DNA of 64,000 bases from Eutreptiella sp. 'Long Island Sound 2002' (taxonomy: Eukaryota > Euglenozoa > Euglenophyceae > Eutreptiales > Eutreptiaceae), in assembly GCA_964036045.1 (NCBI GenBank), contig OZ038392.1, positions 33,865,330 to 33,929,329 on the forward strand, read 5' to 3'. A model generated the notes under the pieces. It worked only from the letters and a program-made list of their open reading frames with translations, was not told the origin of the DNA and searched no databases. Below, piece after piece: positions 2,606-46,374 of the stretch; within the stretch, counting starts at the first letter, position 1; each line of letters begins with the position of its first letter. A program made the translations under genes and the position numbers.

Positions 2606-2617
2606 GTCCTCCTGGAG

Positions 2618-23713: not shown

Positions 23714-24539
23714 GGGAGGGGGACAAGAGGAGCAAACACACAAATGGCATAGCGCCGGCGAGTGCCGGGTCCCAACAAACACACGTGCACGCACCCATGT
23801 TCTATCCTCACAGGTCCCGAAGAGAAGCGTATGCTCGTATCTGCGTCGTCCGGGCGTTAAAGTAGGGTTGTCCTAGACGCTTAGGCAAGTATTGCGTCGT
23901 GCCGTCGTCACATATAAGCGAACGCCCGACAAGGCGGGAGGACTAGGACACGTTAAGGTAGTGGGGAAAGAGGCAGGTATGTTGCATGTCACGCCGCGCG
24001 CGCGGAACGGGCGACGAGAAAAGGTAGCGACCAAAGGGGGGTGGAGACAAGCCGGGAGCAAGTGGGGCGATAAACCTACACGCAAGCCACACGAATGTCG
24101 TACCAGCCAGCTCGAGGTGCCGTGTCGCGACAAAACCGCCGCCGCCGCACGCTTGTTTACGCACCTTTCTCTCCCTACGCAGGTTCAAAAGAGGAAGCCC
24201 GGGCCGACAAGGAAAAAGACAGAGACACGCAACAAAGCGGAGGCAGGGAAAAAGTGCATGCCAGGGAGAGGAGTAGAGGAAAGGGTAAAGAGCAACGAAG
24301 CCGCGAAAGGAACAAGGGGTAGCCAGCGAACGAGCAAGGGGCGCACACAGAGGAGGGGACACGGCGGGCACACGGCGAGCACAACACCGCACCGAGACAC
24401 CGGAGAGGGGAGCACCGGAGGACCAAGGAAAGAGCAGCACCACGCACCACGACACGCACGGCACAGACACCACACACACCGCACACACCCAACGAACCCC
24501 GGCAACCCACCCGGCAGTGGGCGGGCAGACGGGAGAGGG
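23714..24539 (+). promoter_or_regulatory. LINE copy 2 5' leader
   Basis: About 826 bp upstream of the monomers, matching the interrupted leader of copy 1 (reverse complement of 13661-13953 plus 15951-16481). It is non-coding. It holds the site TGCCTCCGCTTTGTT (reverse complement) uninterrupted, i.e. the empty site of the copy 1 insert. Confidence 0.8.
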
Positions 24540-27500
24540 ACAGCGCCTGACCCCAAGCGCCCCTCACCATGGTGGAAGGCGGCCCCCCCGGGGACGCCCT
24601 TCCGCCACCCCCACAGCGAGCAACGCCGGCCCGCAAGGGCGCACGCTGTGGGGCCGGTGCCGGGCCCCCACGCCCACACCGACCGCACCCGGGACACGCG
24701 GGTCGCGGAACCCTGGCTGCACGCTCCGGAGGACGGGCAGCCGGGGGAGGGACAGCGCCTGGCATCAAGCGCCCCTCACAACGGTGGAAGGCAGCCCCCC
24801 CCGGGGACGCCCTTCCGCCACCCCCACAGCGAGCAACGCCGGCCCGCAAGGGCGCACGCTGTGGGGCCGGTGCTGGGTCCACACGCCCGCATCGACCGCA
24901 CCCGGGACACACGGGTCGCGGAACCCTGGCTGCACGCTCCGGAGGACGAGCGGCCGGGGGAGGGACAGCGCCTGGCACCAAGCGCCCCTCACAACGGTGG
25001 AAGGCAGCCCCCCCCGGGGACGCCCTTCCGCCACCCCCACAGCGAGCAACGCCGGCCCGCAAGGGCGCACGCTGTGGGGCCGGTGCTGGGTCCACACGCC
25101 CGCATCGACCGCACCCGGGACACACGGGTCGCGGAACCCTGGCTGCACGCTCCGGAGGACGAGCGGCCGGGGGAGGGGCAGCGCCTGACACCAGGCGCCC
25201 CTCGCAACGGTGGAAGGCACCCCCCCCGGGGACGCCCTTCCGCCACCCCCACAGCGAGCAACGCCGGCCCGCAAGGGCGCACGCTGTGGGGCCGGTGCTG
25301 GGTCCACACGCCCGCATCGACCGCGCCCGGGACACACGGGTCGCGGAACCCTAGCTGCGCGCTCCGGAGGACGAGCTGCCGGGGGAGGGACAGCGCCTGA
25401 CACCAGGCGCCCCTCACAACGGTGGAAGGCACCCCCCCCGGGGACGCCCTTCTGCCGCCCCCACAGCGAGCAACGCCGACCCGCAAGGGCGCACGCTGTG
25501 GGGCCGGTGCTGGGTCCACACGCCCGCATCGACCGCACCCGGGACACACGGGTCGCGGAACCCTGGCTGCACGCTCCGGAGGACGGGCAGCTGGGGGAGG
25601 GACAGCGCCTGACACCAGGCGCCCCTCACAACGGTGAGGGCACCCCCCCCCGGGGACGCCCTTCCGCCACCCCCATAGCAAGCAACGCCAGCCTGCAAGG
25701 GCGCACGCTGTGGGGCCGGTGCTGGGTCCACACGCCCGCATCGACTGCACCCGGGACACGCGGGTCGCGGAACCCTAGCTGCACGCTCCGGAGGACGAGC
25801 GGCCGGGGGAGGGACAGCGCCTGACACCAGGCGCCCCTCACAACGGCGGAAGGCAGCCCCCCCGGGGACGCCCTTCCGCCACCCCCACAGCGAGCAACGC
25901 CGGCCCGCAAGGGCGCACGCTGTGGGGCTGGTGCTGGGTCCACACGCCCACATCAACCGCGCCCGGGACACGCGGGTCGCGGAGCCCTGGCTGCACGCTC
26001 CAGAGGACGAGCGGCCGGGGGAGGGACAGCGCCTGACACCAGGCGCCCCTCACAACGGTGGAAGGCACCCCCCCCGGGGACGCCCTTCCGCCACCCCCAC
26101 AGCGAGCAACGCCAGCCCGCAAGGGCGCACGCTGTGGGGCCGATGCTGGGTCCACACGCCCGCATCGACCGCACCCGGGACACACGGGTCGCGGAACCCT
26201 GGCTGCACGCTCCGGAGGACGGGCGGCCGGGGGAGGGACAGCGCCTGACACCAGGCGCCCCTCACAACGGTAGAAGGCACCCCCCCCCGGGGACGCCCTT
26301 CCACCACCCCCACAGCGAGCAACGCCGGCCCGCAAGGGCGCACGCTGTGGGGCCGGTGCTGGGTCCACACGCCCGCACCGACCGCACCCGGGACACACGG
26401 GTCGCGGAACCCTGGCTGCACGCTCCGGAGGACGAGCGGCCGGGGAAGGGACAGCGCCTGACACCAGGCGCCCCTCACAACGGTGGAAGGCACCCCCCCC
26501 GGGGACGCCCTTCCGCCACCCCCACAGCGAGGAACGCCGGCCCGCAAGGGCGCACGCTGCGGGGCCGGTGCTGGGTCCACACGCCCGCATCGACCGCACC
26601 CGGGACACACGGGTCGCAGAACCCCGGCTGCACGCTCCAAAGGACGAGCGGCCGGGGGAGGGACAGCGCCTGACGCCAGGCGCCCCTCACAACGGTGGTA
26701 GGCACCCCCCCCGGGGGCGCCCCTCCGCCACCCCCACAGCGAGCAACGCCGGCCCGCAAGGGCGCACGCTGTGGGGCCGGTGCTGGGTCCACACGCCCGC
26801 ACCGACCGCGCCCGGGACACGCGGGTCGCGGAACCCTGGCTGCACGCTCCGGAGGACGAGCGGCCGGGGGAGGGACAGCGCCTAACACCAGGCGCCCCTC
26901 ACAACGGTGGAAGGCACCCCCCCCGGGGACGCCCTTCCGCCACCCCCACAGCGAGCAACGCCGGCCCGCAAGGGCGCACGCTGTGAAGCCGGTGCTGGGT
27001 CCACACGCCCGCATCGACCGCACCCGGGACACGCGGGTCACGGAACCCTGGCTGCACGCTCCGGAGGACGAGCGGCCGGGGGAGGGACAGCGCCTGACAC
27101 CAGGCGCCCCTCACAACGGTAGAAGGCACCCCCCCCGGGGACGCCCTTCCGCCACCCCCACAGCGAGCAACACCGGCCCGCAAGGGCGCACGCTGTGGGG
27201 CCGGTGCTGGGTCCACACGCCCGCATCGACCGCACCCGGGACACGCGGGTCGCGGAACCCTGGCTGCACGCTCCGGAAGACGAGTGGCCGGGGGAGGGAC
27301 AGCGCCTGACACCAGGCGCCCCTCACGACGGTGGAAGGCACCCCCCCCGGGGACGCCCTTCCGCCACCCCCACAGCGAGCAGCGTCGGCCCGCAAGGGCG
27401 CACGCTGTGGGGCCGGTGCTGGGTCCACTGCCCGCATCGACCGCGCCCGGGACACGCGGGTCGCGGAACCTGGCTGCACGCTCCGGAGGACGAGCGGCCG

Positions 27501-28395
27501 AGGGAGGGACAGTGCCTGACACCAGGCGCCCCTCACAACGGTGGAAGGCAGCCCCCCCCGGGGACGCCCTTCCGCCACCCCCACAGCGAACAACGCCGGC
27601 CCGCAAGGGCGCACGCCGTGGGGCCGGTACTGGGTCCACACGCCCACATCGACCGCACCCGGGACACACGGGTCGCGGAACCCTGGCTGCGCGCTCCGGA
27701 GGACGAGCGGCCAGGGAAGGGACAGCGCCTGACACCAGGCGCCCCTCACAACGGTGGAAAGCACCCCCCCCGGGGACGCCATTCCGCCAGCCCCACAGCG
27801 AGCAGCGTCGGCCCGCAAGGGCGCACGCTGTGGGACCGGTGCTGGGTCCACACGCCCGCATGGACCGCGCCCGGGACACACGGGTCGCGGAACCCTGGCT
27901 GCACGCTACGAAGGGCGAGCGCGGCCGGGGGAGGGACAGCGCCTGACACCAGGCGCCCCTCACAACGGTGGAAGGCACCCCCCCGGGGACGCCCTTCCGC
28001 CACCCCCACAGCGAGCAACGCCGGCCCGCAAGGGCGCACGCCGTGAGGCCGGTGCTGGGTCCACATGCCCGCATCGACCGCACCCGGGACACACGGGTCG
28101 CGGAACCCTGGCTGCACGCTCCGGAGGACGAGCGGCCGGGGAAGGGACAGCGCCTGACACCAGGCGCCCCTCACAACGGTGGAAGGCATCCCCCCCCCGG
28201 GGACGCCCTCCCGCCACCCCCACAGCGAGCAACGCCGGCCCGCAAGGGCACACGCTGTGGGGCCGGTGCAGGGTCCACTGCCCGCATCGACCGCGCCCGG
28301 GACACGCGGGTCGCGGAACCCTGGCTGCACGCTCCGGAGGACGAGCGGCCGGGGGAGGGACAGCGCCTAACACCGGACGCCCCTCGCAACACTGG
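24540..28395 (+). repeat. 5' monomer array of LINE copy 2 (~18 x ~212 bp)
   Basis: The landmark CAGCGCCTGACACCAGGCGC (or a close variant) recurs near 24541, 24753, 24966, 25180, 25392, 25603, 25817 and on to 28361, giving 18 units of ~212 bp. It is the same unit as the copy 1 array in the opposite orientation. By position it is a candidate tandem promoter array. The last unit passes directly into the ORF1 start region. Confidence 0.95.
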
Positions 28396-28412
28396 AAGGC
28401 GCCCCCCCGGGG

Positions 28413-31400
28413 ATGCCCATCCACCGCCCCCACACCGAGCAACGCACCAACGCACCAACGCACCAGCCACGGGACATCCGCACCCCGCCCCCTGCTCTTA
28501 GACACAGCGACATAGCAATGGCGGAACCCGCGGCACCACGCAAGACACGCCCCCGATCTCCGACGCTGGACGAAGCACACGAGGTCATCAGGGCGCTGGG
28601 ACTCCGAGACGGCGAAGGAGACCCCCCACAAGAGGACACGGGCACAGACTCCGACCTGGAGGCATTGCCGGAGCCCCCCACGGGGGGCGCGCCCGCGGAA
28701 CCTGCGCCGCCGGCGGGCAGCGTATCCGCGATCTGCCCCGCGTGGAAACGGGGCCATTGCACCGGCGAAGGCTGGTGCCCCAAACAGCACCCCCAGCCCG
28801 ATGCCGACGACGGAGCGTTGCCCGAGGTGAAACCCGCGGCCGCACGCGCTGCCCTACGCTACGGGGTGACGCAGGGCTGGATCCTGGATGAGACCGCGCG
28901 CGGCAGCGTGAACATCCAGGAGGCCGTCGACCGCGTCACCCACGCGGGACAGGCGGCGGTGGCCCTGCACACCCGGGGCCGCCACGGTGGACCCGCAGAG
29001 GGGATCATTGTGGATCCCTCGGGAATGGTGCTGGTCCTGGGAGCGGACATGGTCCGAGGGGTGCTCCACGTGTCCCGCGTGCGGCGGGCGTGCCCACAGT
29101 GGACCATCCAGGTGTACACCCCCCCGCGGGCGTGGCCCTTTTCCACATGGGCGGTGCTCGCCGTCATGTGGCACCTGGCACCAGAGGACGCCCCGACAGG
29201 GACCGCGGAGGACATCGCCCGCGACCTCCACACCTGGCCGGCCGACCAGGAATACCCCTGGCGCAGGCCCCGGGGCGGCCTCCCGGTGGCACCAGCGGCG
29301 GAGGGGCTCAGCCTCGCGGCAACCCTCCAACGGCACCCCGACAAGTATGCCCGCCACTTCCTGCAGACGGGCACGGTCCCGGCCGCCCCGCCAGACTCCG
29401 AGTGGCGATGGGACGCAGGGGTGGCGCAACCACTGCCGGGCCCCTGGACCCTCCCGTTGTGGTACTTACCAATGGGCACCTTGGCCCACGCCACCCAGGC
29501 CGTCAAGGGGGCTTTCCCGCAGCCGCCCCTCCCCGGCGTGGCCCTGCTCCGCAGCCTGCAGGCGGGGGCCGCCTGGGTACGGTGGAGGGAAGGGAAGGGG
29601 CGCTCGAGCCCCTATTTCCCCATGGTCCAAGGCCAGGCGCTGATTCATGCCGAGGGCATGGGGACCGTGAAATGGGGGGCGATCGTGCCCGGCACGGCGT
29701 GCAGGTGGATCACGGCGGCCGCCCCACAGCCCATGCGGTCGCCGCCGGCGTGCCACCGCCTCCTACGGATGGTCCCCTCATTGGCCCCCCGGCACGCCTT
29801 TACAAGGGACGTGTGGAAAGCCGTACTGAGCCACACCAGGGAGTGGCTGACGAACCCGGGTACGCGGTACCCGCCGGGACCGGTGCTCGAACAGCTCACG
29901 GCCCCCACACCCGGGGTCCTCCACGCCCTACACAGGGCGTCGGCCCTCACGAAGCAGCTCAACGAAGAAGTGCTGGACCTGGCGCTGGAGCCGCTGCGGG
30001 TGCTCTACCCGCAGGCACACATCCCACCCGCGGGCACGTCCAACCGCCTAGGCCGCCTGGGGTTGCAGCGCCGCGTCGAGGCCGCGCACCCAGGAGGCGT
30101 GGTGGAACAGTGGCTAACGCTCCGCAATCCGTCCGCCGCGGAGGGCCACTGGTACCTGCACCAGCTCCTCTTCCAGCCACGGGCAGCCCCGGAACACCGC
30201 CGGCAGAACCCGTACCACACGCACCCGGAGCGCCGGGGCGCGCAAAACTACCCGCAGCCAATCCCGCCCGCCCTCCCGCCGGGGCAGGGCCCGGAGGCGC
30301 TACAGCGGGGCCCCCCGCTCGACACCGCCACCACGGTACAGCAGTGGGGAGGCGACGATGCGAGCGGTGCCGAACCGGACTGCACGAACTGCGGAGCGGT
30401 GGCCTGGATGGCAGCCTGCAGGCACCTCACCCGAGATACCACGGGACTCCGGCAGTACAGACCCACGGACCGCACGGCGCTGGCGTCCGCGGTCGCGGCC
30501 GTCACCATGGGTCCAGTGGCGGCGTGGCCGGCGCAGCTGCTGCCCCACGTCCCCTGCCGCGACACGCGGCCCCGACGGCCGGCCGCGACGCACGAGCCGA
30601 CGGCGCCCCTCACGGCGGAGCAACTATACGTCGTCGCGGCGGCTTTGCTAGCAGACGGCGGGGAGAGCTTCGTCCACCACCACGGCCCGGCGCAAATTGC
30701 GGGATGCATACAAGGGCCCCAGCGCGATGCACCAGACCCGTGGCATACCACACTCCGCGGGCGCACCCGCGTCTGGGGTGCGGGCGATGGCGCACCCCCG
30801 CCCGGGCCTAAGCAGGGGGAGGCGCTGGTACTGCAGACGGCAGGCTACCAAGCCATCGTACACGGCCACGCCGGAGGGTACCGGTCGCACATCCTGGCTG
30901 GAGGCCGATGGGCGGTCTGGCACAGCATCGCCAGGCAAGGGGCATTCCCGCCCCTGTCCCACGTCGACTGGCGACAGGGGCCCACCCAGGCCTACTACAT
31001 GTCGGCGGACCCCTGGCCGCTGGCGGTCCTGCTGCACACTGTCAGCGCCCCCAACAAGAGGCAGGAACCGGGGTGGGTCAACCCCCCCACACTGGTGTGG
31101 AGCCCCGACCAGGAGGAGCATCTACGGGCCGCGTGGCAGGGAGACGCCATCAGGGCCACGGACGTCCCGGACCTCCACGCGGGGCCCATCACGCACGCCC
31201 GCCCAGCGGCTACCCTGGCGGTGGCCCAACGGGGGCAGCAGAACCCACAGTGGGTGGTCTGCATGTTCAGCCCGGCGGACGCGCACGTCGTCGTCTGCGA
31301 CCCTGAACGCCTGCCGGGGCCCGAAGCCGTGATCCGCGTGGCAGACTGCACCCGCATGATCATCAAGGCGCTGCGGGAGGGCGAACACCACGCCCTCCTG

Positions 31401-32213
31401 CTCCAGGTCAGGCTGAAGGACAACGCCCGGGCGGCGAGGCCGGGAGTGTGGCCGGCAGCGGCGCACCCCGCCGACCTGGAACTCCAGCTGGCGGTCCCGA
31501 CCACGGTGTACCACTGGCTACAGGCCTTCCACGACCTGCGGTGGAGGAGCAAACCCGACCGCCAAATCGGCTCCACGCACTGGCAAACGTGGCTGCAAGC
31601 GGACGCGCAGCGCGATGCCGCCCGAGGCCTCGGGCCCGCGCCCGCGACGCGAGCCCTCGATGCGGCGGCCCCGGGCCGCACGCTGGCACCACACACGGTG
31701 CCGCTGGCCAACCTGCCCTTCGAACCAGCAGCGGAGGGCGCCATTCGGAAGTCAGTGCAGCTCCCCCCGGCGCGAGGGGCCACGGAGCCGACGAAATGCC
31801 CCCTGTGTGCGGACAAGTACTACACCAGCGGGGCGATGCTGGAACACCTGGCGTGGCACGCGGTGCACGCTGCGGCCCCGGCGGATGACAAGGAGGCGGC
31901 GGCCAACATCCTGCAGGGGAGGGCACGGAGGTCCCCGTGGCACGCCCCGTACACCCGGCGCCCCCCGCCCCAGGCAGCCGACCACGCAGATGGAGGTGAG
32001 GAGGCACCCGGAGCGGCCCCGGGGGCCGGCGGTGCGGCCCCACCAGGGTCCATGTCCATCCCCGCGGGGCTGGCCCCCCTGGCCCCCCTGACTCCCCCGG
32101 TCCCCCGGGCCCCTTTGTGGGCCCCGCTGGGAACGGGCTCAGCGGATGCGGCGCACCCAGATGCCCTGGCGGCACCAGCGAACCCGGCGGCGATGCCGAC
32201 GCGGGATAGCTGA
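28413..32213 (+). CDS. LINE ORF1 protein, CCCH and C2H2 zinc fingers (1266 codons)
   Basis: An intact frame. The first ATG (28413) lies in monomer-like sequence; the second, at 28518 (GCAATGG, protein MAEPAAPRK), has the better context and is conserved in copy 1, so I favour it. Residues 108-126 (from the first ATG) form a CCCH finger, C-x7-C-x5-C-x3-H. Near the C-terminus (about 31797-31865) is a C2H2 finger, CPLC...HLAWH. The middle is unrecognised, with a faintly ubiquitin-protease-like pair of segments (see findings). The tail is rich in Ala, Pro and Gly. LINE ORF1 proteins bind element RNA and escort it to the target, and the fingers fit that role. The length is about double or more that of usual ORF1 proteins. 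The frame ends at TGA 32211-32213, with ORF2 in the same frame downstream. Confidence 0.9.
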   Translation: MPIHRPHTEQRTNAPTHQPRDIRTPPPALRHSDIAMAEPAAPRKTRPRSPTLDEAHEVIRALGLRDGEGDPPQEDTGTDSDLEALPEPPTGGAPAEPAPPAGSVSAICPAWKRGHCTGEGWCPKQHPQPDADDGALPEVKPAAARAALRYGVTQGWILDETARGSVNIQEAVDRVTHAGQAAVALHTRGRHGGPAEGIIVDPSGMVLVLGADMVRGVLHVSRVRRACPQWTIQVYTPPRAWPFSTWAVLAVMWHLAPEDAPTGTAEDIARDLHTWPADQEYPWRRPRGGLPVAPAAEGLSLAATLQRHPDKYARHFLQTGTVPAAPPDSEWRWDAGVAQPLPGPWTLPLWYLPMGTLAHATQAVKGAFPQPPLPGVALLRSLQAGAAWVRWREGKGRSSPYFPMVQGQALIHAEGMGTVKWGAIVPGTACRWITAAAPQPMRSPPACHRLLRMVPSLAPRHAFTRDVWKAVLSHTREWLTNPGTRYPPGPVLEQLTAPTPGVLHALHRASALTKQLNEEVLDLALEPLRVLYPQAHIPPAGTSNRLGRLGLQRRVEAAHPGGVVEQWLTLRNPSAAEGHWYLHQLLFQPRAAPEHRRQNPYHTHPERRGAQNYPQPIPPALPPGQGPEALQRGPPLDTATTVQQWGGDDASGAEPDCTNCGAVAWMAACRHLTRDTTGLRQYRPTDRTALASAVAAVTMGPVAAWPAQLLPHVPCRDTRPRRPAATHEPTAPLTAEQLYVVAAALLADGGESFVHHHGPAQIAGCIQGPQRDAPDPWHTTLRGRTRVWGAGDGAPPPGPKQGEALVLQTAGYQAIVHGHAGGYRSHILAGGRWAVWHSIARQGAFPPLSHVDWRQGPTQAYYMSADPWPLAVLLHTVSAPNKRQEPGWVNPPTLVWSPDQEEHLRAAWQGDAIRATDVPDLHAGPITHARPAATLAVAQRGQQNPQWVVCMFSPADAHVVVCDPERLPGPEAVIRVADCTRMIIKALREGEHHALLLQVRLKDNARAARPGVWPAAAHPADLELQLAVPTTVYHWLQAFHDLRWRSKPDRQIGSTHWQTWLQADAQRDAARGLGPAPATRALDAAAPGRTLAPHTVPLANLPFEPAAEGAIRKSVQLPPARGATEPTKCPLCADKYYTSGAMLEHLAWHAVHAAAPADDKEAAANILQGRARRSPWHAPYTRRPPPQAADHADGGEEAPGAAPGAGGAAPPGSMSIPAGLAPLAPLTPPVPRAPLWAPLGTGSADAAHPDALAAPANPAAMPTRDS

Positions 32214-32228
32214 CTCCAGGAGGACACG
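32211..32228 (+). other. ORF1 stop / ORF2 start junction (same frame)
   Basis: TGA CTC CAG GAG GAC ACG here, against TGA CTC CAG GAG GAC ATG in copy 1. The endonuclease frame is already open directly after the TGA, and the first ATG-like codon is ACG in this copy. UGA followed by C is a leaky stop context in eukaryotes, so readthrough or termination-reinitiation are both possible. Confidence 0.7.
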
Positions 32229-35200
32229 ACGGGCGACGCCCTGTGGCTCCTCTCGTGGAACCTGCGCAACGGCCTCGTGCCGCCAGACCGGTCCCTCCGG
32301 GACACACTCCGGCGGCGCAGGGGGCCGGCGGCCTGCACCGACAAGGAGCACCTCATCACCGGCATGCTGCCCCAGGAGGGGGGCTTTGCCATCATGCTCC
32401 AGGAAACGGGGATCGCCACCAGGGCGCAGGAGATGCACGTGGCCGCGGCGCTCCGGGACAAGGGGTACACCGCCTACTTCAGCAGCCGGCTGGCGGAGAC
32501 GGGGGCCACCTCCACCTCGAGAGGGGGGGGCCTCCTCACCGCGGTCAGCAGCAAATACGTGGCGGAGCACGAGGCGCTCAGCTTCACGGAAATTGTCCCC
32601 GGGAAAGCCGCGGCCCTGGAGATCCGCACGGACGGGGGAGGCCTCACCCTCATCAACGTCCACGGGCCGCAAGCAGGTTGCTCCCCGTGGGCGGGACGGG
32701 CGGCGTTCTGGGCCGACATACAAATGTATGCCACGGCACGCAGCCTCGGCGGGAGGCACCCGGTGGTCATCGCCGGTGACACCAACATCTACATGGATGT
32801 CCCCGCCAACCCGGCCACGGAGCACTTCCGAGCGGGCTGGGAGGCCTGCGGCTTCCGAAGGGCCGCGGCGGGCGGAGAGGAGGACATGACCCCCACGCTC
32901 CACCCGTCCCAGCACAGGGTGGACACTTTCCTGGTCAACGAGCCCCTCCTGCCGTGGTCCCTGCGGGAGAGCGTCTGGGCTCGCGGCATGGCACACCCCC
33001 AGGTGGTCCGCTCGGACCACCTCCCGGTCCGCCTGGCCCTGCCGGGCCTCCTCAGCGCAGCGGGACGCGCGGCGATGCCCACCCCCTACAGCCACACGGA
33101 AGGCCGCCTCCTCCCGTACGACGCCGAGGCTGCGCCCGTCCAACACTGCCTGTGGGCGGCGGTCACCGCCGCGCAGGATGAACCCTCCCTTGCGCCCTGG
33201 CCGGGTCCCGCAGAGCAGCACGACTACGGGTCCATGCCCGCGGCTGCGGTGGACAAGGTGTTCGAACACCTCCACGCGACGCATGACGCCCTGGCGCGCG
33301 TGGTGGGACGCCGGCAGCCGTCTCCGGCGGGAACGGACCCGGCGGAGGGGGACCCCCCGGAGAGCGGAAAGCAGCTCCAGGCAGCGGTCCTCCGCTATGA
33401 CACCCTGGCAGCGCGCGCCCCGGCAGCGTACCAGGCGGACGCGGCCAGGCATGGCATCCGGTCCGAGGCGGCGCTCCGGCTCACGGAGGAACTGCAGAGT
33501 GTGTCGCCCGGGTTCCGCCCGACCACGCAGGGCCAGCTGCAGGAGGAGCTGGAGAGGCAAGCAGCCGCCCTCGAGGAGGACATTTGCCAGCTCCGCGCCC
33601 TCCTGGCGGCAGACCGCAAGCGCGCCATCAAGGAATTCTGGCGCCGCCACGCCCCCGACATCGCCCAGCGATGGAAAGCCGTGCGGGGAGCCATAGAGGT
33701 AGAGGCCCCAGGCCAGTCAGGCCTCTGGAACGTGCGGGTTCCCAACACCCAAACGCTCCTCACGGAGGCCCACGACGTGATGTTCGCAGTTCGCGCCTTC
33801 TGGCGAGAACTGTATGACAAACGCCCGGTGGACCTCCCGGGTTTCCAGGCGGTCCTCGGCCGCCACGTCCCCCGGGTCCCTGAGGGAGCCTGGACACAGG
33901 TCCAGCAGTACTCCATGCAGGACCTGAAGTCCGCCCTGGACAAGGCCGATGGCAAGGCCCCGGGTCCTAACCACGTGGAGGCCCGCTTCATCAAGGCCCT
34001 CCCGGCACCCGTCCAGTGGCTCCTGGTCCACTCCTACCGGGCCATCCTCCGCGGCGCCCCGCCACCGATGCACTGGAGGGACGCGCACATCTGGCTCAGC
34101 CCCAAGGTACCGGGCTCTGCCAGACTGGACGACTACAGGCCCATAGCCCTGGGCCAGCTGGACATGAAGCTGCTCACGGGCCCCCTCACCCAGCGCATCA
34201 CGGAGGTGCTCACACGGCACGGGGTGGTCAGCGACTGGCAGCAGGGGGCCCTCCCTGGCTCCAACACAGGCCCCCCACTGTTCATGGCGCAGCGGCAGCT
34301 CCAGCGGGGAAGGCCCAACTACGTCTTCTCCTTCGACACCCGCAAGGCCTTCGACACCGCCCCACACGGCGCCCTCCACCTCATCCTGCGCCACCTCTCC
34401 GTGCCGCCGGACGTCATTGACCTCCTGCTCTTCCTCCACACGTGCGCCAGGCTGCGCATCGTCACAGCACACGGGCTAACGCAGCCCGTCTACATGCTAC
34501 GCGGCGTCCGGCAGGGCAACCCCGAGAGCCCCCTGCTGTACGCGCTCCTCCTGGAGCCTCTGCTCAGGGCACAGGGGCACCGCCTGCGCCCGCCGGGAGG
34601 AGCCGAGCACGGCCTCATCCAGGCCTATATCGACGACCTGCTGGTGGTGGCCCACACGCTGCAGCACTTCGTCGAGGGCGTGGAGGCGGTGGCCGCGTAC
34701 CTGGGGATGATGGGCATGGAGCTCAACCCCCGCAAGTGCGCCATGGCCACCACGGAGGGGGTCCCGGGCCTGCAGCTGCGCCTCTGCCCCCACCTGGAAA
34801 ACCCGTGGTACTGGGTACCAGCGGCGGACTCCGTCCCCTACCTGGGACTCCAGCTGCAGCCGGACGGGGAGTTCTCCCTGCAGCGCAAGCACCGGCTACG
34901 CCTGGCGGCAGTGCACCACTGGTGCCTTAACACCCTCGCGCCACCGAAAGTGGTGCAGGACGTCATCCTAGCGATCCTCGGAGGGGTGACGCAGTACGTC
35001 GCCCCTTTCATCGCCGACGACTCCGACACTGCACGCCACCTGGACCACATCACGGTCCAGGTCGCGAAGGACAGGGCACGATACGCCTTCGACGCCTCGC
35101 GGGACAGCCTGCAGGATGACCGGACCCTGGGGCTCACACGGGTGCCCACGCGGTGCCAGCAGGCAGCGGTGGCCCTCGTGGGTACACTCGTCCACCACCG

Positions 35201-36032: not shown

Positions 36033-38638
36033 TAGTGCAAGTGGGGGCAGGCCAGCCCGAACCCCGTGGGCTCCCCCGTGGCACCGCCCTACTGGTGGCT
36101 ACGGGGGTGCCGCACGACCCACACATGGCGGTGCACGCGCTGGAGGACCGTCCGGAGGACACAGGACACTTGGTGGTACACCAGCGCGGGGGCCCGGCGT
36201 GGCTCAAGGAACATGTGACGGCGCTACGGTCCTGGGCAAGCACGGTCGCCGGAGCGGAGATCCGGCTGCACGACCACCCGGCGATCAGCCCAGGCGACAC
36301 CAGGGCGCTGAGCGTGGACCAACTGACCCACAGCCACCCCGACGTCCGGTGGCACTTCACCGACCTCAACGCGGGGTGGCTCAGCCCCACCGGATACTAC
36401 TGGATCCCGGAGGCCTGGGGACACACCTCCTCTGACGCGTCCGGGGGCGGACCCTGCAAACACGCCACCAGCGTCGCTCTCGCCGCCGACCTCACCCGCA
36501 CGTGGGCGGTGGCCATCTCGGGCACGGTGCCTGACGGAGAGGGGGTGGCCGCCTCCCTCCCCCTACATTACGGTGCACACAGACCATGGGTCCACACGGT
36601 GGACGCCGAAGTCATCCTCCACCTCCTGCGGCACGCAGATCGCGAGCGAACCACGGGGGTCCCCGCGGGCGCAGCGAAGGTGGTCAACCAGATGCCCCTG
36701 AGGTGGCTCCGGGACGGCCTGTGCGCGCGGGGGCAACACGCCGGGCACCCGTTCTGGTACGTCCCAGCCACCTCGCACCACAGTGACGCCCTACTGCACA
36801 AGGCGGACTGGGCGGCGTCCCAGGACACCGTCTTGCAGAACACGCCCCCGGACCCTGGCCACGCCCAACTCATCGTCGCCGGCCGTGACGGCCATCTCGA
36901 TCTACGGCCCCCCACGATGCGGGTGCTCGGCGAGGTCGCGCAACGGGCGCAGACGGACCATGCGCTGACGCACCGGGGACACACACCTCTGGGCGCGGCC
37001 CACGCCACGGCCTACGTCCACGCCCGGGACCTCAGCGCGGCGGCCACCAACCGCCGGGCGCTGCGGGCCCGAGACGGCCACACGCCGGTGCAGCGCAGGC
37101 TCCGCGTCCGGAAGGAGCGGCTCTCCGGCGTCGCCATCGTCCCGCAACCGTGCCTTTTCTGCGGCGGCCCGGAAGAGACCCCGGTGCACATGCACGTGGG
37201 CTGCACCCACTCGCGGCTCCTCTGGCCCCACTACCGCCAGGCGGTGCACGAGGCGGCCCGTCACCTCCCACCTGGGGACAAGGCCCTGTGGGTGGCCTCG
37301 TGGCGCTCCGCAGGCGCCACGTGGACGGAGGTGTTCTGCTCCGGACTGGTGCCCGAGGACGCGGAGGCGCAGCTCCGCGCCATAACCCGATACGACCCGC
37401 CGGGAGGGACCTCGGTGGACGACTTCCTCCACCACATGCTCCGGCTGGGGGACTTCGCGTGGGAGCTTCGCAACCACCGGCTGGAGCAACTCCTCCACAA
37501 CCCCCTAAGCGCGGCGGCCCGGGCGCACCGGTGGCTCACTGCGGCGGAGGGCGACCACCCTCCCCCTCCCCCGCGCCCTGACAAGGACTTCGTAGCCTCC
37601 CTCCGTGTTGTGAATGGCACTCTGGAGTGCCCACTCCAAGAGGGCCCCCACCCGTATCAGGACCTGCCGGGGGGGTTCTCGAGGCACCTGCAAGACGCCC
37701 TTTTCCCACCGTGGATCATCGGGCGCGGCTCCATGACCGCATGGGAGGCGCGCATCGTGGGGGAGGAGTGGGCGCGGGAGTGGGGCCGGTGGTGCGCCGC
37801 CACGCGCGCCCCGGAGACCCCTGCGCAACGATACGCCGCCATCCCGCTCCGGGGGTGGGGGCCGGACACCCGGCCGAGACCCACCATGGTCCGCGGGGCG
37901 GGACCTGACCACCCGTGGGACGCGGCGACGGGGGAATGGCTGCAGGCGGCCCCGGGGCCGCAAACGGGATGGACTGGGGACGTATCCTCACTCGTCAGGA
38001 CGCCCGTCCCGCCCCGCATCGTCCTTCACACCGCCAACGTGCTCCGGGCCACGGAGATACGCACGTGGGGACACGCTGCGGCCACCGTCTGGTGGCAACC
38101 CCCAGAGGACGGGGCCACCCAACTCACCGTGGCGCACTTCAAAGCGGGGGGGCCGGTATACGACGACGCCCTGTCCCGGCTGGGCGACACCCAGGGGCCC
38201 TTACTCCTCATGCTCCCCACCGGTATCGCAGCCGCGCTGCGCCAGGAGCTGGACGGCTGCGAAGGGCTGCGAGTGGGGTGGGAGGCGGTCACGGACGGCA
38301 CCCTACTGGCCCTCCTCCACAGGGACACCGCGAACGGGTGCCAATGGGACGCGATGACGCCCCACCTCACCGGGCGCCACGTGTACATGGCGAGCCCCCC
38401 CCAGGGGCACCCCCGCCCGGCGTGGGACGACCTCATCGCCGCCTTCCACGACCACGGGATCCTCCCCGACGACACGTGGCAGGAGGTCGAGCGGAAGACG
38501 CTTGGCAAGGACTACCGGCGCCTCGTCCGCGCCCGCTTGCTGGAGATCCGGGACCCCCTTCGACAGAGGTGGGACGACCTCTGGCTCCGCCATCTCGACC
38601 CTTGGTCGCCGCCCTCCCACCTCCCACACACCTGCTGA
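35915..38638 (+). CDS. LINE ORF3 / ORF2 C-terminal part: RNase H-like region and CCHC zinc knuckle
   Basis: 907 codons in the -1 frame relative to ORF2, overlapping it by at least 118 bp; the frame is open upstream to at least 35800. The first start-like codon is GTG, so independent initiation is doubtful. Residues about 170-302 resemble RNase H: SDASGGG (D174), HTVDAEVILHLL (D230) and SHHSDALLHKADWAAS (D298); the Glu partner is not certain. Residues 413-430 are C-x2-C-x8-H-x4-C (CLFCGGPEETPVHMHVGC), the knuckle common at LINE ORF2 C-termini. In other LINEs these belong to the RT polypeptide, so either a -1 frameshift joins them or an indel has split ORF2. The C-terminal ~450 residues are unrecognised. 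Confidence 0.8.
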   Translation: MARALTPPAPRADAVVAGDHRRPMHPGAAGQAQLRAEWVIVQVGAGQPEPRGLPRGTALLVATGVPHDPHMAVHALEDRPEDTGHLVVHQRGGPAWLKEHVTALRSWASTVAGAEIRLHDHPAISPGDTRALSVDQLTHSHPDVRWHFTDLNAGWLSPTGYYWIPEAWGHTSSDASGGGPCKHATSVALAADLTRTWAVAISGTVPDGEGVAASLPLHYGAHRPWVHTVDAEVILHLLRHADRERTTGVPAGAAKVVNQMPLRWLRDGLCARGQHAGHPFWYVPATSHHSDALLHKADWAASQDTVLQNTPPDPGHAQLIVAGRDGHLDLRPPTMRVLGEVAQRAQTDHALTHRGHTPLGAAHATAYVHARDLSAAATNRRALRARDGHTPVQRRLRVRKERLSGVAIVPQPCLFCGGPEETPVHMHVGCTHSRLLWPHYRQAVHEAARHLPPGDKALWVASWRSAGATWTEVFCSGLVPEDAEAQLRAITRYDPPGGTSVDDFLHHMLRLGDFAWELRNHRLEQLLHNPLSAAARAHRWLTAAEGDHPPPPPRPDKDFVASLRVVNGTLECPLQEGPHPYQDLPGGFSRHLQDALFPPWIIGRGSMTAWEARIVGEEWAREWGRWCAATRAPETPAQRYAAIPLRGWGPDTRPRPTMVRGAGPDHPWDAATGEWLQAAPGPQTGWTGDVSSLVRTPVPPRIVLHTANVLRATEIRTWGHAAATVWWQPPEDGATQLTVAHFKAGGPVYDDALSRLGDTQGPLLLMLPTGIAAALRQELDGCEGLRVGWEAVTDGTLLALLHRDTANGCQWDAMTPHLTGRHVYMASPPQGHPRPAWDDLIAAFHDHGILPDDTWQEVERKTLGKDYRRLVRARLLEIRDPLRQRWDDLWLRHLDPWSPPSHLPHTC

Positions 38639-38950
38639 CTCTGCGGAGAGTGTGACACGGTGTCCTCCGCAGCAGCGACAGGCGCCAACAGGTGCGAGCG
38701 GTGCACCCAGGTAGCCGCGTGCCCCTGGCCCGAACCTCCCGCAGGTCCGCACAGGCGCACAGAGGAGGAGGCCTTGCGCCGGCGCATCGAGGGGGCACAC
38801 ACCCCCTCACACGAACAGGCGGGCCCCGCGGGCGCTGCCCTTCTGTGGATCCACGTGCACCTACGGGACCCCACATCCATTGCGCACCTGTCGCACGTGT
38901 TCGCCCCCTAACCCCCACCCGCCGCCGCCCTTTGCAGAGCCCGCAGCGCC
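38639..38950 (+). other. Spacer between ORF3 and the downstream ORF
   Basis: 312 bp, GC-rich. It contains CACACGGTGTCC and several short frames, none convincing. No hairpin or repeat stands out. Confidence 0.5.
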
Positions 38951-40115
38951 ATGCCACGCCGACGGGGGGATGGGCCGGGACACACCAGGGCCCGCCGCAG
39001 AGCGCAGGAGGCGGCCGTCCGGGGCCTGGTGGCGGACGCGGTGGCGGAGGCACACGGAGCGCACGCTGCCGCACGGTGCGACCTGGAGGGCAGTGCGAGG
39101 GCCTTCCTCAACGAGACCGCCCTCCCGGCCGTCCGCGCCCTGAACGGAGCGGGGGCCCCTACGCTGCTCCCGGCAATGCACCGGATCGTGAACGCCGTCC
39201 GGCCGGGGCTCATCAGCCCGGAAGCGGCCCTCTACGGGCACTGGATGGAGTGGCGCGAGTCCAATCGGTCGGGCCGGCCCCTGTCCATGGGGGACGCCCT
39301 CCGGCTGACGGGAGCGGGGTCTGCCATGTCCCTCCGCAGTAGCGCCCCAGCCCTGCTGCACGCCCTCAGGACGCGCTACCCCGGGGACGCGGCCCCGTAC
39401 CTGAACCAGGCGCGGGCCACGTACCCGGGGGGAGTGTCCGAGCTGGATGCGGCGCTCCACCTTCTACACCCGCCGGACGAGGACCTGGAGGTGGGCGAGG
39501 TCACGGTGTTCGTGGAAGGCGCGGACGAGGCGTCCGCCCGCCCCCGGCCGACCAACCCGGTGTATGACGGCACCGGGCCTACCCCCCCGTACGCCGTCGT
39601 CTACGAGGCGTTCCCCAGGGAGCCCACTTGGTGCCCCGCCCTCCCACCGGCGACGCACGCGCCCCGCGTCTGGGCTAACCCAGACCTGTCCCCCCCCCTC
39701 TCCAGGACCAGGGGTGCCCACCACAGGGGGCAGGTCCTCTGGCAAGAGTGCCCTGGCACCCCCCTCCTCCTCCTCGTCGTCGCGTCCCGCGGGGGCCCGG
39801 GGCGGATCCTGGGGATCACCCCCACCCACCTCTATGGGGCCACACCCGTACCCCGCCCCCCCCTCCCGGCGCCCGAGGCGCGGGACGGAGTACACACCTT
39901 CCTGCGCACACAGGAGGTCACCGCCGCTACGGGGGTCCATCTGGTGCGGCTGCCCCCGGCACCGCTCGACGACCCCCGGGGGCCCAGGGCCCTGAGCCCC
40001 GCCCCAGACTGGGAGCTGTGGCGCGACGCGTGGGCCGCGTGGCTCCCCCGCCTCCCCTCCCAATGCCGGTGGATGGCCGCGGACCCCCGGCCGTGCGGGG
40101 CTGACGCCACAGCCG

Positions 40116-40146
<31 letters not shown>

Positions 40147-41575
40147 CAGAGCACCACACGGCACTGCCCACGGCACGGCACTGATGCACCAGGAGGTAGT
40201 GGGAAGGGCGCGCCTGCCACCACGCATGCCTACCAGAGTAACAGTGATGGCAGACTCCGATGGGTCCCTCGGGCGGGACGACCGCCACCACCGCCGGTCC
40301 CGCTCCCGCTCCCCCGTCTCCTCCCCAGAGTGGACGGGGGAGACCCTCGCGGAGCGCGAGGAGCGGAGGCTGGCGGAGGCGGCGGTGGTCGGGCCGCCGC
40401 CGCCGGCCCGGGAACCTGGGCCAGCCGAGACGGCCGCCCCCGCCGCCCAAGCGGCCAGCCCCGCCGCCCCGCCCCGCCCTGACGCGCAGGAGGGCGGAGA
40501 CCGCGGCGAGCCACGCCGCGGCCCCGGCCGCGGCCCCCGGCACGCCGCCGGCAAGGGGGGCAGCCCCGGCGCAGGAGCCGGACGCGTCGCCGAGGGCTGC
40601 CGCAGCCGCGCAGGAGAGCAAGCAGGGCGCAAGAGGGGTTGCGACGGACCCCGCACGGGCCGTGGGCGCCTCGCCGGCGGCCGCCGCGGCAGCAGAGAAG
40701 ACCGAGGAGGATGTGCGAGGGTCTGCGACCGCGGCCACGGGCGCCTCGTCGGCGGCCGCCGCGGCAGCGAAGGAGAGTGCGGAGGGCGCGAGAGGGGCTG
40801 CGGCCCCTGGCACGCCGCGCAAGCGGGGGAAGAACCCCGCACGGGCCGCGGACGCCTCGCCGGCGGCCGCCGCAGCAGCAGTAGTGGGCAGGGAGAGCGC
40901 GAAGTACCGCGCCCACGCCAACCCCGCCCACACCCACACCAGCCCCCCCAAGCCGTACCCCCCCCAAGCCCTTCCCCCCGGGGCGGGAGCGGCACGTCCG
41001 CCCCCCGACTCGCGAGCGCTCGCCGCCGGGCGTCACGCTGCCGCAACTGCAAAGGCAGCGGGACGCCCGGCGAGTGGTCCAGGAAGGGCGCAGCGGCGAG
41101 GGGGAGGGGAGCGGCAGACGGCGTGACAGGCAGGGGGCAGGGGAGGGGTCGGGGCACGGGAAGGGCGCGCAGGAGCGCGGGCAGGGGGCCCAGGTGCAGG
41201 GGGCGGAGCGAGGGGAGGTGGGAGAGCGAGCGGGCCGGGGCGTGGTGGACGAGAGGCGGGGCCCGCGACTCGGGCAGGGGGTCGGGGAGGGGCCAGGGCA
41301 CGGGAAGGGTGTTCAGGGGCGCGGGGAGGGTACCCAGGCGCAGGGGGCAGGACACGGAGGGATGGGAGAGCGAGCGGGCCAGGGCGTGGGGGACCAGAGG
41401 CGGGACCCGCGACACGGGCACGGGACCGGAAAGGGGCCCAAGGGCAGGGGCAAGGGCAAGGGCAAGGGCCCCAAGGGGCAGGAGGGACGGGGCACGGGAG
41501 CCCAGGGGGGAGGGCGGGGCGAGGGGAGGGGGGCAGAGGGCGGAGCACCCCCGCAGCCGGACGTGCTGCCGGTGA
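38951..41575 (+). CDS. LINE downstream ORF, unknown function
   Basis: An ATG-initiated frame (MPRRRGDGPGHTRARRRAQE) of 874 codons. The first ~390 residues look like ordinary folded protein, with mixed hydrophobic and charged residues (LLPAMHRIVNAV, LHLLHPPDEDLEVGEV). A C30 run (40116-40145) then encodes Pro10. After it comes an Arg/Ser segment (HHRRSRSRSPVSSPEW). Beyond about 40490 the more protein-like frame appears to be 40260-41126 (Ala-rich repeats with Lys/Glu, such as AAAEKTEEDVRGS), and after about 41000 the frame of 41074-42435. So a single longer ORF may have been cut by two indels in low-complexity DNA. I do not recognise the protein. An ORF downstream of RT is unusual for a LINE. 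Confidence 0.55.
40116..40145 (+). repeat. C30 homopolymer
   Basis: Thirty consecutive C within the downstream ORF. It is prone to slippage and to read errors, so the frame after it is uncertain. The G-rich strand could form a quadruplex. Confidence 0.95.
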
Positions 41576-42435
41576 GGTGCATCCCCCCCGGCATCCAACA
41601 GATGCCGGCACACCACACCTACCACCACCACCACCACCACCACCACCACCTCTACAACATCGACCCTGACGCCGGCGAGCTCATCCCCCCCCAACCCCCA
41701 CGACACCAGCACCAGCAAGCCCCCCCCGCGCCGAGGGCGGAGCCGGCGTGGATGGCCTCGGCGGAGGGGGGACGGGGCGTGGCATCGGCGCCGCAGGTGC
41801 AGGAGCAGCGAGGGGGGCCGGCACGGGGGGCGGAGGAGAGCCGGCCGTGGAACGTGGACTGGGGCGCAGTCCCGGACCCGCTGGGGGGGGAGACCCTCCC
41901 CCTGGTGGGGGAAGTGTACGGGTGGTTGTGCTGGGCCAACCAGGGGACCTCCAGGAGGTCGCGGAACCGGCCCTTCGATGCCGTGCTCCTCCGGAGGGAC
42001 GGAGGAAACCGAGAGGCACCCCCGGGGGGGTGGGCGGCCCCAGAGGACCACGAGAGGGTCCTCAGGTCAGTGATCCGGGCAGCGTGGCCCGACAGGGAGC
42101 CGACGTGGCCGGCCTTCCTGGAGGGGGGAGCGGTGCTCCGCATCACGGATGCGGACGCCAACAACTGGCTCCCCCGGGCTTTGCGTAGCGCCCTCGCCCA
42201 CTGGCGCTACCGCCGGCACAACCCGCCGCCGCCGCAGCCCCAGCCCCCCACACAAGCGGCGGCGCAAGTGAAGGCCCAGACGGTGGGTACGGGAGGGTTG
42301 GGGGGGGGGGATGGGCCCCCTGACCCACGCCCCCCCCACGGTATGGCACGACGTGCGGGGACGCGCCGCCTCCCGCGGGAGGGAGTGCGGGGGCGACAAG
42401 CGCGGGGAGGAACCGGCTGCCCCGCAACCTGCTAA
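41074..42435 (+). CDS. LINE downstream ORF, third frame: Gly/Lys-rich repeats, His tract, folded C-terminus
   Basis: 453 codons starting at GTG, overlapping the previous frame. The N-terminal half is Gly/Arg/Glu/Lys-rich low complexity (KGRGKGKGKGPKG). A His tract from a CAC repeat (41622-41650) follows. The last ~150 residues look like a compact domain (VYGWLCWANQGTSRRSRNR, HERVLRSVIRAAWPDREP). No family is recognised. It is probably the C-terminal part of the same downstream protein as the 38951 frame; separate translation is less likely because no ATG is available. It stops at 42435, after which the 3' region begins. Confidence 0.45.
   Translation: MVQEGRSGEGEGSGRRRDRQGAGEGSGHGKGAQERGQGAQVQGAERGEVGERAGRGVVDERRGPRLGQGVGEGPGHGKGVQGRGEGTQAQGAGHGGMGERAGQGVGDQRRDPRHGHGTGKGPKGRGKGKGKGPKGQEGRGTGAQGGGRGEGRGAEGGAPPQPDVLPVRCIPPGIQQMPAHHTYHHHHHHHHHLYNIDPDAGELIPPQPPRHQHQQAPPAPRAEPAWMASAEGGRGVASAPQVQEQRGGPARGAEESRPWNVDWGAVPDPLGGETLPLVGEVYGWLCWANQGTSRRSRNRPFDAVLLRRDGGNREAPPGGWAAPEDHERVLRSVIRAAWPDREPTWPAFLEGGAVLRITDADANNWLPRALRSALAHWRYRRHNPPPPQPQPPTQAAAQVKAQTVGTGGLGGGDGPPDPRPPHGMARRAGTRRLPREGVRGRQARGGTGCPATC
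41622..41650 (+). repeat. CAC microsatellite
   Basis: About nine CAC units, read as poly-His in the overlapping frame. Confidence 0.9.
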
Positions 42436-43487
42436 CCACTGACCGCTAACCTCCACGGCCACCCCCGGCCGGCCGGCGCCGCGCGGCAACGGCCGGGGAG
42501 GTGAGGGCCCCGGCGAGGGCCTGCGCGGGCATCCAGCTCTCGATAGGGGGGGCGGGTGAAGGGCGCGACCCCCTGGCCGATGGCTGGCCCCCGGGACCAG
42601 GGCCGCCATGCCGCCCCCGCCCCCCCCCCCCCACGGCCGACGAGAGGCATCACCAGGGGGCCAAAGGGCCCCCCCCAACCCACCCCCCCCCCCCGCACAG
42701 ACCCGGGGGCGGGCGAGGGGGCGGCCCCCCCATCCCCCCCCCCCCCCCGCACCCACCGCAGCAGGGGAGCCACAGGCGCGGCCCTCCGCCCCCCCAGGGC
42801 CGGGGGGGCGCCCCCCCCTCAGGGGGAATGGCGGCGCAATGCGGGCAACGGCGGCTGGGCCTGCTCCCGCGAACCCACACCGGCGTGCCGGGGCAACGCG
42901 CACGACGGAGCAGGAAGGAGGCCGCGCCCCACATGACCCTCCCGTAACCACAGCCCGCTCCGAGGTGACAGAGGGAGGGTGTCAAGTCAGATGGGGCCCC
43001 CAGGGGGGCGGTCCACGGGCCGCCCCTCACCCCCCCCCACCCCGGGGCGGCACTTGAGCCCCGACCACAAGCGCGCGCCGGAGGGGAGCGCACCGGCGAC
43101 GCGGAGAGAGCCAGGAAGGAGTACCACAGGCCGCCGCCTGGAACGAGAGCAGGGAGGCCGCGGCGCGACACCCCCCCCCCCCCCCCCCGCCCCCCCACCG
43201 GCCCGCCAGCCGCAGGGGCCCCGGCCCCCACCCCCCGAGGCTGAAGGGACGGACCCCCCCCGCCCGAGAGGGGAGCCGGAGTGTGACCCGCCCCGACGCC
43301 CCACCCGCCGGCTCCAATGGGGGCCGCGAAGAGCAAGTGGGCCCACGCCTGCGCACCGGGACGCCGCGCAGATCGTGCCCAGAGAAGCCGGGTGGGCGCG
43401 AACCGGAATGGTATGGGTGGCCACGCCCCCCATGGACAGCACGACGCCAAGGGACGCCCGCTTTGTTGCCTACCCGGGGAAAGCGGC
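42419..43487 (+). repeat. LINE 3' region tandem duplication, unit 1
   Basis: About 1069 bp starting CCCCGCAACCTGCTAACCACTG, matched by the unit starting near 43488. It contains several C-runs, including C18 at 43171-43188. It is non-coding; the open frames are due to composition. Confidence 0.85.
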
Positions 43488-43792
43488 CCCGCAACCCGCT
43501 AACCACTGACCGCTGACCCTCACGGCCACCCCCGGCCGGCTAGCGCCGCGCGGCAACGGCCGGGAGATGAGGGGCCCCAGGGAGGGACTGCGTGAGGATC
43601 CGGCACTCGGTAGAGGGGGGCGGGGGAAGGGCGCGACCCCCCTGGCCGATGGCTGGCCCCCGGGGCTGGGACCGCCAAGCCGCCCTCCCCCCCCCCCCCC
43701 TTTTTGGCCGACAGGGGGCATCGCCAGGGAACCGAAGGACCCCCCCCACTCCCCCCCCCCCCCTCCCACACAGGCCCGAGAGCGAGCGGGGT

Positions 43793-43828
<36 letters not shown>

Positions 43829-44480
43829 CACCCACCCCAGCTGGGGAGCCACAGGCGCGGCCCTCCGCCCCCCCAGGGCCGGGGGGGCGCCCCCACCCAC
43901 AGGAGGAACGGCGACACGGTAAGGGCAACGGCGGCTGGACCTGCCCCCACGAACCCACACCGGCGTGCCGGAGCAACGCGCACAACGGAACACGAAGGAG
44001 GCCGCGCCCCACATGACCCTCCCGTGACCACAGCCCACTCCGAGGGGACAGAGGGGGGGTTTGCAGGTCAGCCGGGGCCCCCAGGGGAGCGGTCCACGGG
44101 CCGCCCCTCACCCCCCCTCGCCCCGGGGCGGCACTTCAGCCCCGACCGCACGCGCGCGCCGGAGGGGAGGGCCAGAAAGGGGTACCGCAGGCCGCCGCCC
44201 GGAGCGAGAGCGGGGAGGCCGCAGCGCGACACCCCCCCCGAGGCAAGGGGAATGGACCCCCCCCACCCGAGAGGGGGGCCGGAGTGTGACCCGCCCCCCC
44301 GCTCCGGCCGCCGGCCCACAAGGGGGCCGCAAAGAACAAGCGGGCCCACGCCTGCGCACCGGGACGCCGCACAGATCGTACCCGGAGAGGCTGGGTGAAC
44401 ACGAACCGGAGTGGTATGGGGGGCCACGCCCCCCATGGACAGCGCAACGCCAGAGACGCCCGCTTTGTTGCCTGCCCAGG
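43488..44480 (+). repeat. LINE 3' region tandem duplication, unit 2
   Basis: Restarts CCCCGCAACCCGCTAACC and follows unit 1 in order, including ACCCACACCGGCGTGCC and TTTGTTGCC near its end. It carries C33 at 43795-43827. The units differ by scattered changes and by C-run length. Confidence 0.85.
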
Positions 44481-44739
44481 GAAGGCAGAGGGATGGAAAG
44501 AGGCAGAGCGGCCCCCCGCCCTACAGTCAGTTGGCGACCCGGTGGTGCTACTGCCCGCCTCTTACCCCTGTGCACGTCAGTCGGCGATCCAACGCACCCC
44601 ACCCAGCCCCCTCCCCTGTCCCGACCCCGTGCGCGTGGACTGAGGCCTCCCGGCACGCGCAACACGCTTCACAGCGCACAGCCCCACCCTCAGGACTGGA
44701 TTCATAGCCGACGACACCCCTCAGTGGCGTAAGAGACTC

Positions 44740-44815
44740 CCGCGGCCCAGTAGTGAGAGCGTCGGTCTTCAATCGTCCAGTGCGGGGGTTCGATCCCGGG
44801 CGTTGGTGCTCCTGG
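44740..44815 (+). other. tRNA-like segment in the LINE 3' region
   Basis: CCCAGTAGTGAGAGCGTC (A-box-like) followed by CGGGGGTTCGATCCCGGG (T-arm-like; B-box GGTTCGATCCC at about 44786-44796). A clean cloverleaf is not obtained, so this is a degenerate tRNA-derived segment, possibly an old SINE captured in the 3' region. Confidence 0.45.
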
Positions 44816-46270: not shown

Positions 46271-46317
46271 CCCCACTAGGACCCGGTGGGGAGCATATCA
46301 CCTGGCCCGACCAGGTG
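46271..46317 (+). other. Two hairpins near the LINE 3' end
   Basis: CCCCAC (46271-46276) pairs with GTGGGG (46286-46291), and CACCTGG (46299-46305) pairs with CCAGGTG (46311-46317) across loop CCCGA. Stem-loops close to the 3' end are what many LINE RTs recognise; that role is inferred. Confidence 0.6.
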
Positions 46318-46350
46318 GCCCCCCGGGGCCGAAAAGCGTCTAGTACCCGC

Positions 46351-46374
46351 AAAACCAAACCTCAAACCTCAAAC
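46351..46374 (+). repeat. LINE 3' tail of CTCAAAC repeats
   Basis: AAAACCAAAC followed by CTCAAAC units up to the target duplication. A short tandem-repeat tail instead of poly(A) is known from several LINE clades. The last CTC overlaps the first bases of the target duplication, so the junction is ambiguous by up to 3 bp. Confidence 0.8.

Follow-up and report, generated by a model that had tools for sequence, protein, structure and literature searches.

A LINE family with complete copies of 23 to 30 kb in a euglenid genome

A window of 64,000 nucleotides from contig OZ038392.1 of Eutreptiella sp. 'Long Island Sound 2002' (chromosome-scale assembly of 2.28 Gb) contains a large long interspersed nuclear element (LINE), which interrupts the long terminal repeat (LTR) of a gypsy element. 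The window is this whole stretch, and all coordinates are positions in it. The 14-bp word CTCCTGAGTTGGCA has exactly two matches in the window, one at either end of the LINE, and none on the opposite strand. When the LTR halves (22222-23713 and 46389-46719) are rejoined with one CTCCTGAGTTGGCA, they align in a single block, over all 1,823 bases and with 91.3% identity, to an intact LTR in the same window, in which the word occurs once with one mismatch. Since the duplication is found only at both ends and the rejoined LTR aligns whole, the insertion can be delimited to 22,661 bp (Table 1). An earlier note, made from the sequence alone, had proposed that the LTR halves meet at this duplication and that they enclose one LINE insertion of 22.66 kb. 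Both proposals hold, and the second is strengthened by other copies in the genome, seven out of ten having both shared ends, 22.9-29.5 kb apart. The claim that the full extent is thereby known is correct for the insertion and not for the element: seven of the ten sampled copies begin 1.17 kb further upstream, and the window copy is therefore slightly 5'-truncated. The window element is a genuine single non-LTR insertion, slightly truncated, of a family (here called family A) with complete copies of 23-30 kb. In 1-kb steps, the G+C content of the insertion is 69-79%, compared with about 45-61% in the parts of the window that belong to neither copy of the element. Directly downstream of the interrupted LTR lies a 40-bp tandem repeat of about 20 copies (46973-47802).

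The full-length unit very probably begins with a 2-kb leader, followed by an array of 212-bp repeats (monomers) that varies in copy number, two long open reading frames (ORF1 and ORF2), a possible ORF3 and an extended 3' region that ends in a tail of short repeats. The leader, monomers, ORF1, endonuclease and reverse transcriptase (RT) that the earlier note had listed are all present, endonuclease and RT being recognized by Pfam. The monomers, which had been described as promoter-like, do not stand at the 5' end: their array begins 0.8 kb inside the window copy and about 2 kb inside the full-length copies. The window also contains part of a second copy of the family. Within this copy 2 there is an insert of about 2 kb (13953-15936), which is flanked by the 15-bp word TGCCTCCGCTTTGTT and has no relatives elsewhere in the window.

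Table 1. Features of the LINE locus (positions in the 64,000-nt window)
Feature	Position	Strand	Evidence or remark
Family A copy 2, runs off the window; 33 monomers; inserted in a gypsy element	1..17920	-	92-94% identical to copy 1 in two main blocks; shared 5' start at 17920
Left 14-bp target-site duplication CTCCTGAGTTGGCA	23700..23713	.	Exact word, two occurrences in the window
Family A copy 1, LINE insertion, 22,661 bp, 5'-truncated by ~1.17 kb	23714..46374	+	Duplication, rejoined LTR, other copies
Leader remainder, 0.8 kb; in full-length copies preceded by another 1.17 kb that begins with GTCGCGCGATCGCAGCAG	23714..24529	+	Comparison of copies
212-bp tandem repeat (monomers), 18.5 copies	24530..28445	+	Repeat analysis
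ORF1, 1231 aa, ends in TGA; CCCH finger (C-x7-C-x5-C-x3-H) towards the N-terminus and C2H2 finger towards the C-terminus	28518..32213	+	Open frame, motifs
ORF2 5' part: APE-type endonuclease and RT (RVT_1, YIDD at ~34626); in the ORF1 frame, one TGA between	32214..36032	+	Pfam, motifs
ORF2 3' part, different frame in the window copy: RNase H-like D-E-D-H-D at 36365-36829, CCHC knuckle at 37151	35726..38638	+	Motifs
ORF3 candidate, conserved N-terminal part	38951..40114	+	dN/dS 0.47 vs copy 2, 0.79 vs copy C11
Further open frame, coding not convincing	40885..42435	+	dN/dS comparison
Tandem duplication in 3' region, ~1.03 kb, 79% identical	42416..44486	+	Self-comparison of the window
3' tail, (TCAAACC)n type	46355..46374	+	Window and other copies
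Right target-site duplication	46375..46388	.	Intact LTR has the site once, one mismatch
Intact gypsy LTR, equivalent to the empty target site	60249..62066	+	Alignment to the rejoined halves

A 1-kb ORF1 probe gave 1,863 first-look candidates in the genome. All 40 places that were scored, the window included, match at 99-100%, and these nearly identical places are spread over many chromosomes. The ten best copies outside the window were analysed on both sides (20 stretches); as they were picked by ORF1 identity, this sample favours young and complete copies. A shared 5' start, GTCGCGCGATCGCAGCAG, is found in seven of them, and in copy C6a (L011) its first two bases are missing. The same start is seen at all five further 5' ends, belonging to four copies matched by the ORF1 and leader probes and to window copy 2; two of those four (C7 and C749) have an identical flank and may be one insertion. 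Truncated 5' ends occur in the window copy, C24, C20 and probably L017. The 3' end is present in nine of the ten sampled copies, where its distance to the ORF1 probe is 16.14-16.90 kb, compared with 16.87 kb for the window copy. The genome search for full-length copies with target duplications of their own, which the earlier note had suggested, thus yielded seven full-length copies out of ten, and a duplication in eight of the nine sampled copies with both ends. The parts of the element form one unit: they recur in the same order and at the same distances at loci on several chromosomes, with their own flanks and, where readable, their own duplication. A separate 1-kb fragment of the 3' end, 90% identical and probably a 5'-truncated copy, lies inverted near another copy (L013, positions 2202-3226 in the orientation of that copy).

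The lengths of the full-length copies, counted from the common start up to where the tail begins, are 23,994, 23,800, 23,572, 23,311, 22,877, 24,066 and 29,505 bp. Their monomer number ranges from 14 to 45, and the longest copy (C5) owes its surplus length to its 45 monomers. This variation is what would be expected if a shorter LINE had inserted and then grown, its array expanding by unequal exchange and other pieces being added in place. When 212 bp per monomer are subtracted, however, 19,909-20,038 bp remain in all seven copies. Nearly all of the length variation is therefore due to monomer number, and only the array can have grown. In addition, copies that are about 99% identical leave little time for each of them to grow, and later growth of a shorter insertion is an unlikely explanation of the size. 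The copying of more than 22 kb in one event would be the simplest reading of a single pair of ends with a single duplication; the number of monomers could still change after insertion.

The target-site duplications are of two kinds. Both ends are available for ten copies, nine sampled ones and the window copy, and the duplication is decidable in nine of these. Six have short duplications: 14 bp in the window, 17 in C11, 15 in C17a, 17 in C17b, 17 in C5 and 12 in the 5'-truncated C20. The other three have long ones, of 438 bp with 100% identity (C6b, L019/L020), about 1,885 bp with 99.3% (C24, L013/L014, 5'-truncated) and 3,117 bp with 99.6% (C17c, L027/L028). One copy of a second family, family B (see below), has a flanking duplication about 2,590 bp long, with 97.9% identity (L051/L052); in a second family B copy, no duplication was found between the stretches compared. 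In the six decidable full-length copies, the duplication is separated from the 5' start by 10-35 nt of filler, which differs from copy to copy (L009, L015, L019, L025, L027, L029). The long direct repeats around three family A copies and one family B copy would also be left if these copies had moved within larger DNA duplications and not by target-primed reverse transcription. Yet these repeats adjoin the 3' end on one side and the 5' start or the truncation point on the other, bar 10-14 nt of filler in two full-length copies, which is not expected from DNA duplication. Moreover, kilobase-long duplications, with a median of 1,495 bp, are described for L1 in human cells deficient in nucleotide excision repair (PMC5223499). 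The L1 case concerns a high rate in mutant cell lines, while the duplications described here are found in a natural genome, alongside ordinary ones of 12-17 bp. Movement within larger DNA duplications is thus quite improbable.

In comparison with copy 2, the ratio of nonsynonymous to synonymous change (dN/dS) is 0.36 and 0.31 for two parts of ORF1, 0.29 for the endonuclease-RT part of ORF2 (0.19 for the endonuclease alone), 0.37 and 0.40 for two parts of the ORF2 C-terminal region, and 0.47 for the N-terminal part of ORF3. Control frames from this DNA had ratios of 1.03-1.62 (four values, which do not cover the second ORF1 part) and, in six further values, 0.88-2.36. ORF1 and ORF2, with endonuclease and RT, are under purifying selection. 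For ORF3 as a coding sequence, the support is modest. In the comparison with C11, based on 12 changes, its ratio is only 0.79, and one of the two control frames had a lower one (0.43). Of the extra ORFs claimed in the earlier note, the N-terminal part of one, the ORF3 candidate (38930-40114), therefore retains some coding support, and the frame at 40885-42435 shows no good evidence of coding.

That the element is an assembly artefact or a nested composite of several elements, to which the very GC-rich and repeat-rich DNA and the expected 3' end missing at one of ten loci might point, is extremely improbable given reading frames that are continuous under purifying selection and an order and spacing of parts that recur on several chromosomes with their own flanks and, where readable, duplications. 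Some of the copies do weigh against the reading as one LINE family. The locus without a 3' end in the stretch examined is L017/L018; four further copies and window copy 2 likewise have no 3' end within the short stretches examined; and C6a (L011/L012) sits in a satellite, where its duplication is unreadable. Target duplications of variable length, a simple-repeat tail, a constant 3' end and some 5' truncation are all found, as is usual for LINEs. We estimate a probability of about 0.9 that the element is a copy of an autonomous LINE family of a euglenid, with an RNA of 23-30 kb that is reverse-transcribed by target-primed reverse transcription. This mode of insertion is inferred from the types of protein encoded, the tail, the 5' truncation and the variable target duplications. 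An RNA of 23-30 kb would be made; the ORF2 protein would nick the target and copy the RNA from its tail. Copying often runs to the very 5' end, as in seven of the ten sampled copies. The second strand would then be cut either about 15 bp away or at a distance of hundreds to thousands of bases, and this offset may be the cause of the short and the kilobase-long duplications.

ORF2 comprises about 2,200 aa and encodes an APE-type endonuclease, an RT, a probable RNase H and a CCHC knuckle. In the window copy it is split across two frames around 35.7-36.0 kb, and other copies carry it as a single frame, as in P0008 (2181 aa, a cluster of 438 members), a record that starts at a Met within the endonuclease. 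Pfam recognizes RVT_1 (1.1e-22) and Exo_endo_phos (1.3e-8, above its cut-off), and the endonuclease motifs lie at 32250-33012. Among solved structures in the PDB, the best matches of the RT are R2 (8gh6, 6e-17) and L1 ORF2p (8c8j, 7e-13). ORF1 has no match in Pfam or the PDB. The spacings of its fingers are canonical, and the 95 proteins found to be related to it all come from ENA sources, presumably from this or a closely related organism.

With regard to RNase H, residues D, E, D, H and D at positions 24, 59, 80, 138 and 148 of the stretch examined are conserved without change in both families, A and B. The intervals between them, 35, 21, 58 and 10, resemble those in E. coli RNase HI (38, 22, 54 and 10), and the pattern occurs once in ORF2; it arises at least once in 84 of 2000 shuffles. 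Several results point the other way. The Pfam search gave no RNase H hit in ORF2. In an hhalign comparison with four known LINE RNase H domains, the catalytic positions lined up, but at a probability of 0.3%, and equally high scores came from control windows slid along the rest of ORF2. Finally, two AlphaFold models of the region have a pLDDT of 31. Judged from the conserved residues, ORF2 likely contains an RNase H. The RNase H announced by the earlier note accordingly stands as a conserved D-E-D-H-D pattern, without profile or fold support.

The same genome harbours family B. Its representative, P0053, shows 42% identity across 96% of the part used in the search. All 28 scored places match P0053 at 96-100%, and 21 of these contain no stop. 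Between the two families, the identity of ORF2 amounts to 37.8% across 2,051 aligned positions, and family B has the same core layout as family A. Upstream of ORF2 in a family B copy on C1, there is at least 10 kb of GC-rich DNA, a candidate part of the element. It contains, as further candidate parts, tandem repeats of 189 bp and a long ORF1 frame that likewise encodes a CCCH finger. A family A copy (the flank of L025/L026, compared with L053, reverse strand, 3397-4157) appears inside DNA resembling these 189-bp repeats.

In both families, ORF1 and ORF2 are in the same frame and separated by a single TGA: this holds for two of two A copies (32211-32213 in the window) and for five of five distinct B copies (L047-L051, L053). 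Ahead of this TGA, the B copies have an open frame of 144 to 1,078 codons; in the C1 copy, the long ORF1 frame is a different one, which indicates a frame change near the end of ORF1. No ATG is present between the TGA and the first endonuclease motif in five of seven copies. As ORF2 follows in the ORF1 frame behind a single UGA in both families, readthrough of this stop by ribosomes is a likely route to its expression. There are two points against it: an ATG shortly after the stop exists in family A copy 2, B copy L049 and P0007, and RNA structure near the UGA lends no support to readthrough (z-scores of 0.55, -0.79 and 0.28).

As to the relationship with other retroelements, 33 proteins were entered in an RT tree and 31 were placed. 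Families A and B group together (100/100) and sit on a long branch, next to which the RTs P0094 and P0101 are placed with weak support; P0101 has an endonuclease, an RT and a Pfam RNase H. The RT phylogeny that had been suggested as a check consequently unites the two families; in a tree that does not include reference clade RTs, it assigns them to no named clade. The alignment search for named LINE relatives was dominated by copies of the family itself (best 120 of 139 matches). A Penelope-like or Terminon origin is rejected, since Pfam shows an APE-type endonuclease with RVT_1 and no GIY-YIG. An LTR element is rejected as well: no terminal repeats of more than 120 bp join the ends of the window copy, and the first 1.9 kb do not match the last 3.7-3.9 kb in six of six full-length copies. 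LINEs with an APE endonuclease and RNase H (the I, ingi/L1Tc and R1 groups) measure 4-6 kb, and ingi/L1Tc reside in trypanosomes, which are kin of the euglenids. The element resembles these groups in its APE endonuclease and RT, in a CCHC knuckle downstream of the RT with a probable RNase H in between, and in its simple-repeat 3' tail. It differs from them in its size of 23-30 kb, in an ORF1 without a named relative, and in its leader, array and possible ORF3. Mouse L1 has a variable number of tandem monomers of about 200 bp at its 5' end, upstream of ORF1. The units described here are likewise about 200 bp long, tandem, variable in number and upstream of ORF1; they lie about 2 kb inside and not, as in a monomer-type L1, at the 5' end.

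Very large retroelements are known among the Terminons, giant Penelope-like elements of rotifers, and the Ogre/Burro LTR elements, Terminons and Burro also having extra ORFs (PMC6431247). These are Penelope-like or LTR elements, and the available text of that source names no LINE among elements above 20 kb. Neither a published LINE above 20 kb nor a Euglena LINE was found among the matches listed from the open-access PMC literature. Unusual features of the family are its size, the proportion of sampled copies that are complete and the duplications of kilobase length. At even odds, we envisage a euglenid LINE clade of at least two families, in which RNAs of 20-30 kb would routinely be reverse-transcribed as far as the 5' end within one insertion, with UGA readthrough and second-strand cuts that are often at kilobase distances; such elements would exceed all known LINEs in size and would give rise to segmental duplications in nature. 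With a size of 23-30 kb, many near-identical copies and a 5' end reached in seven of the ten sampled ones, the LINE points to a very processive RT, which is of interest for enzyme work. Kilobase-long target duplications in a natural genome, for their part, bear on second-strand synthesis. In the repeat annotation of E. gracilis, 1.5% is given as LINE and 32.7% as unknown (PMC11252322), and such LINEs may hide in this unknown fraction.

Regarding the host, (TTAGGG)n telomeric repeats were found at four of the five contig ends read, and a common 18S pattern had no match in the genome. A 24-base piece of what we take to be the Euglena spliced leader has 3,283 exact matches in the genome, versus none for the reversed control, from which it follows that the host is a euglenid. 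Those listed are dispersed along C1, and the matches may include retrocopies of trans-spliced mRNAs.

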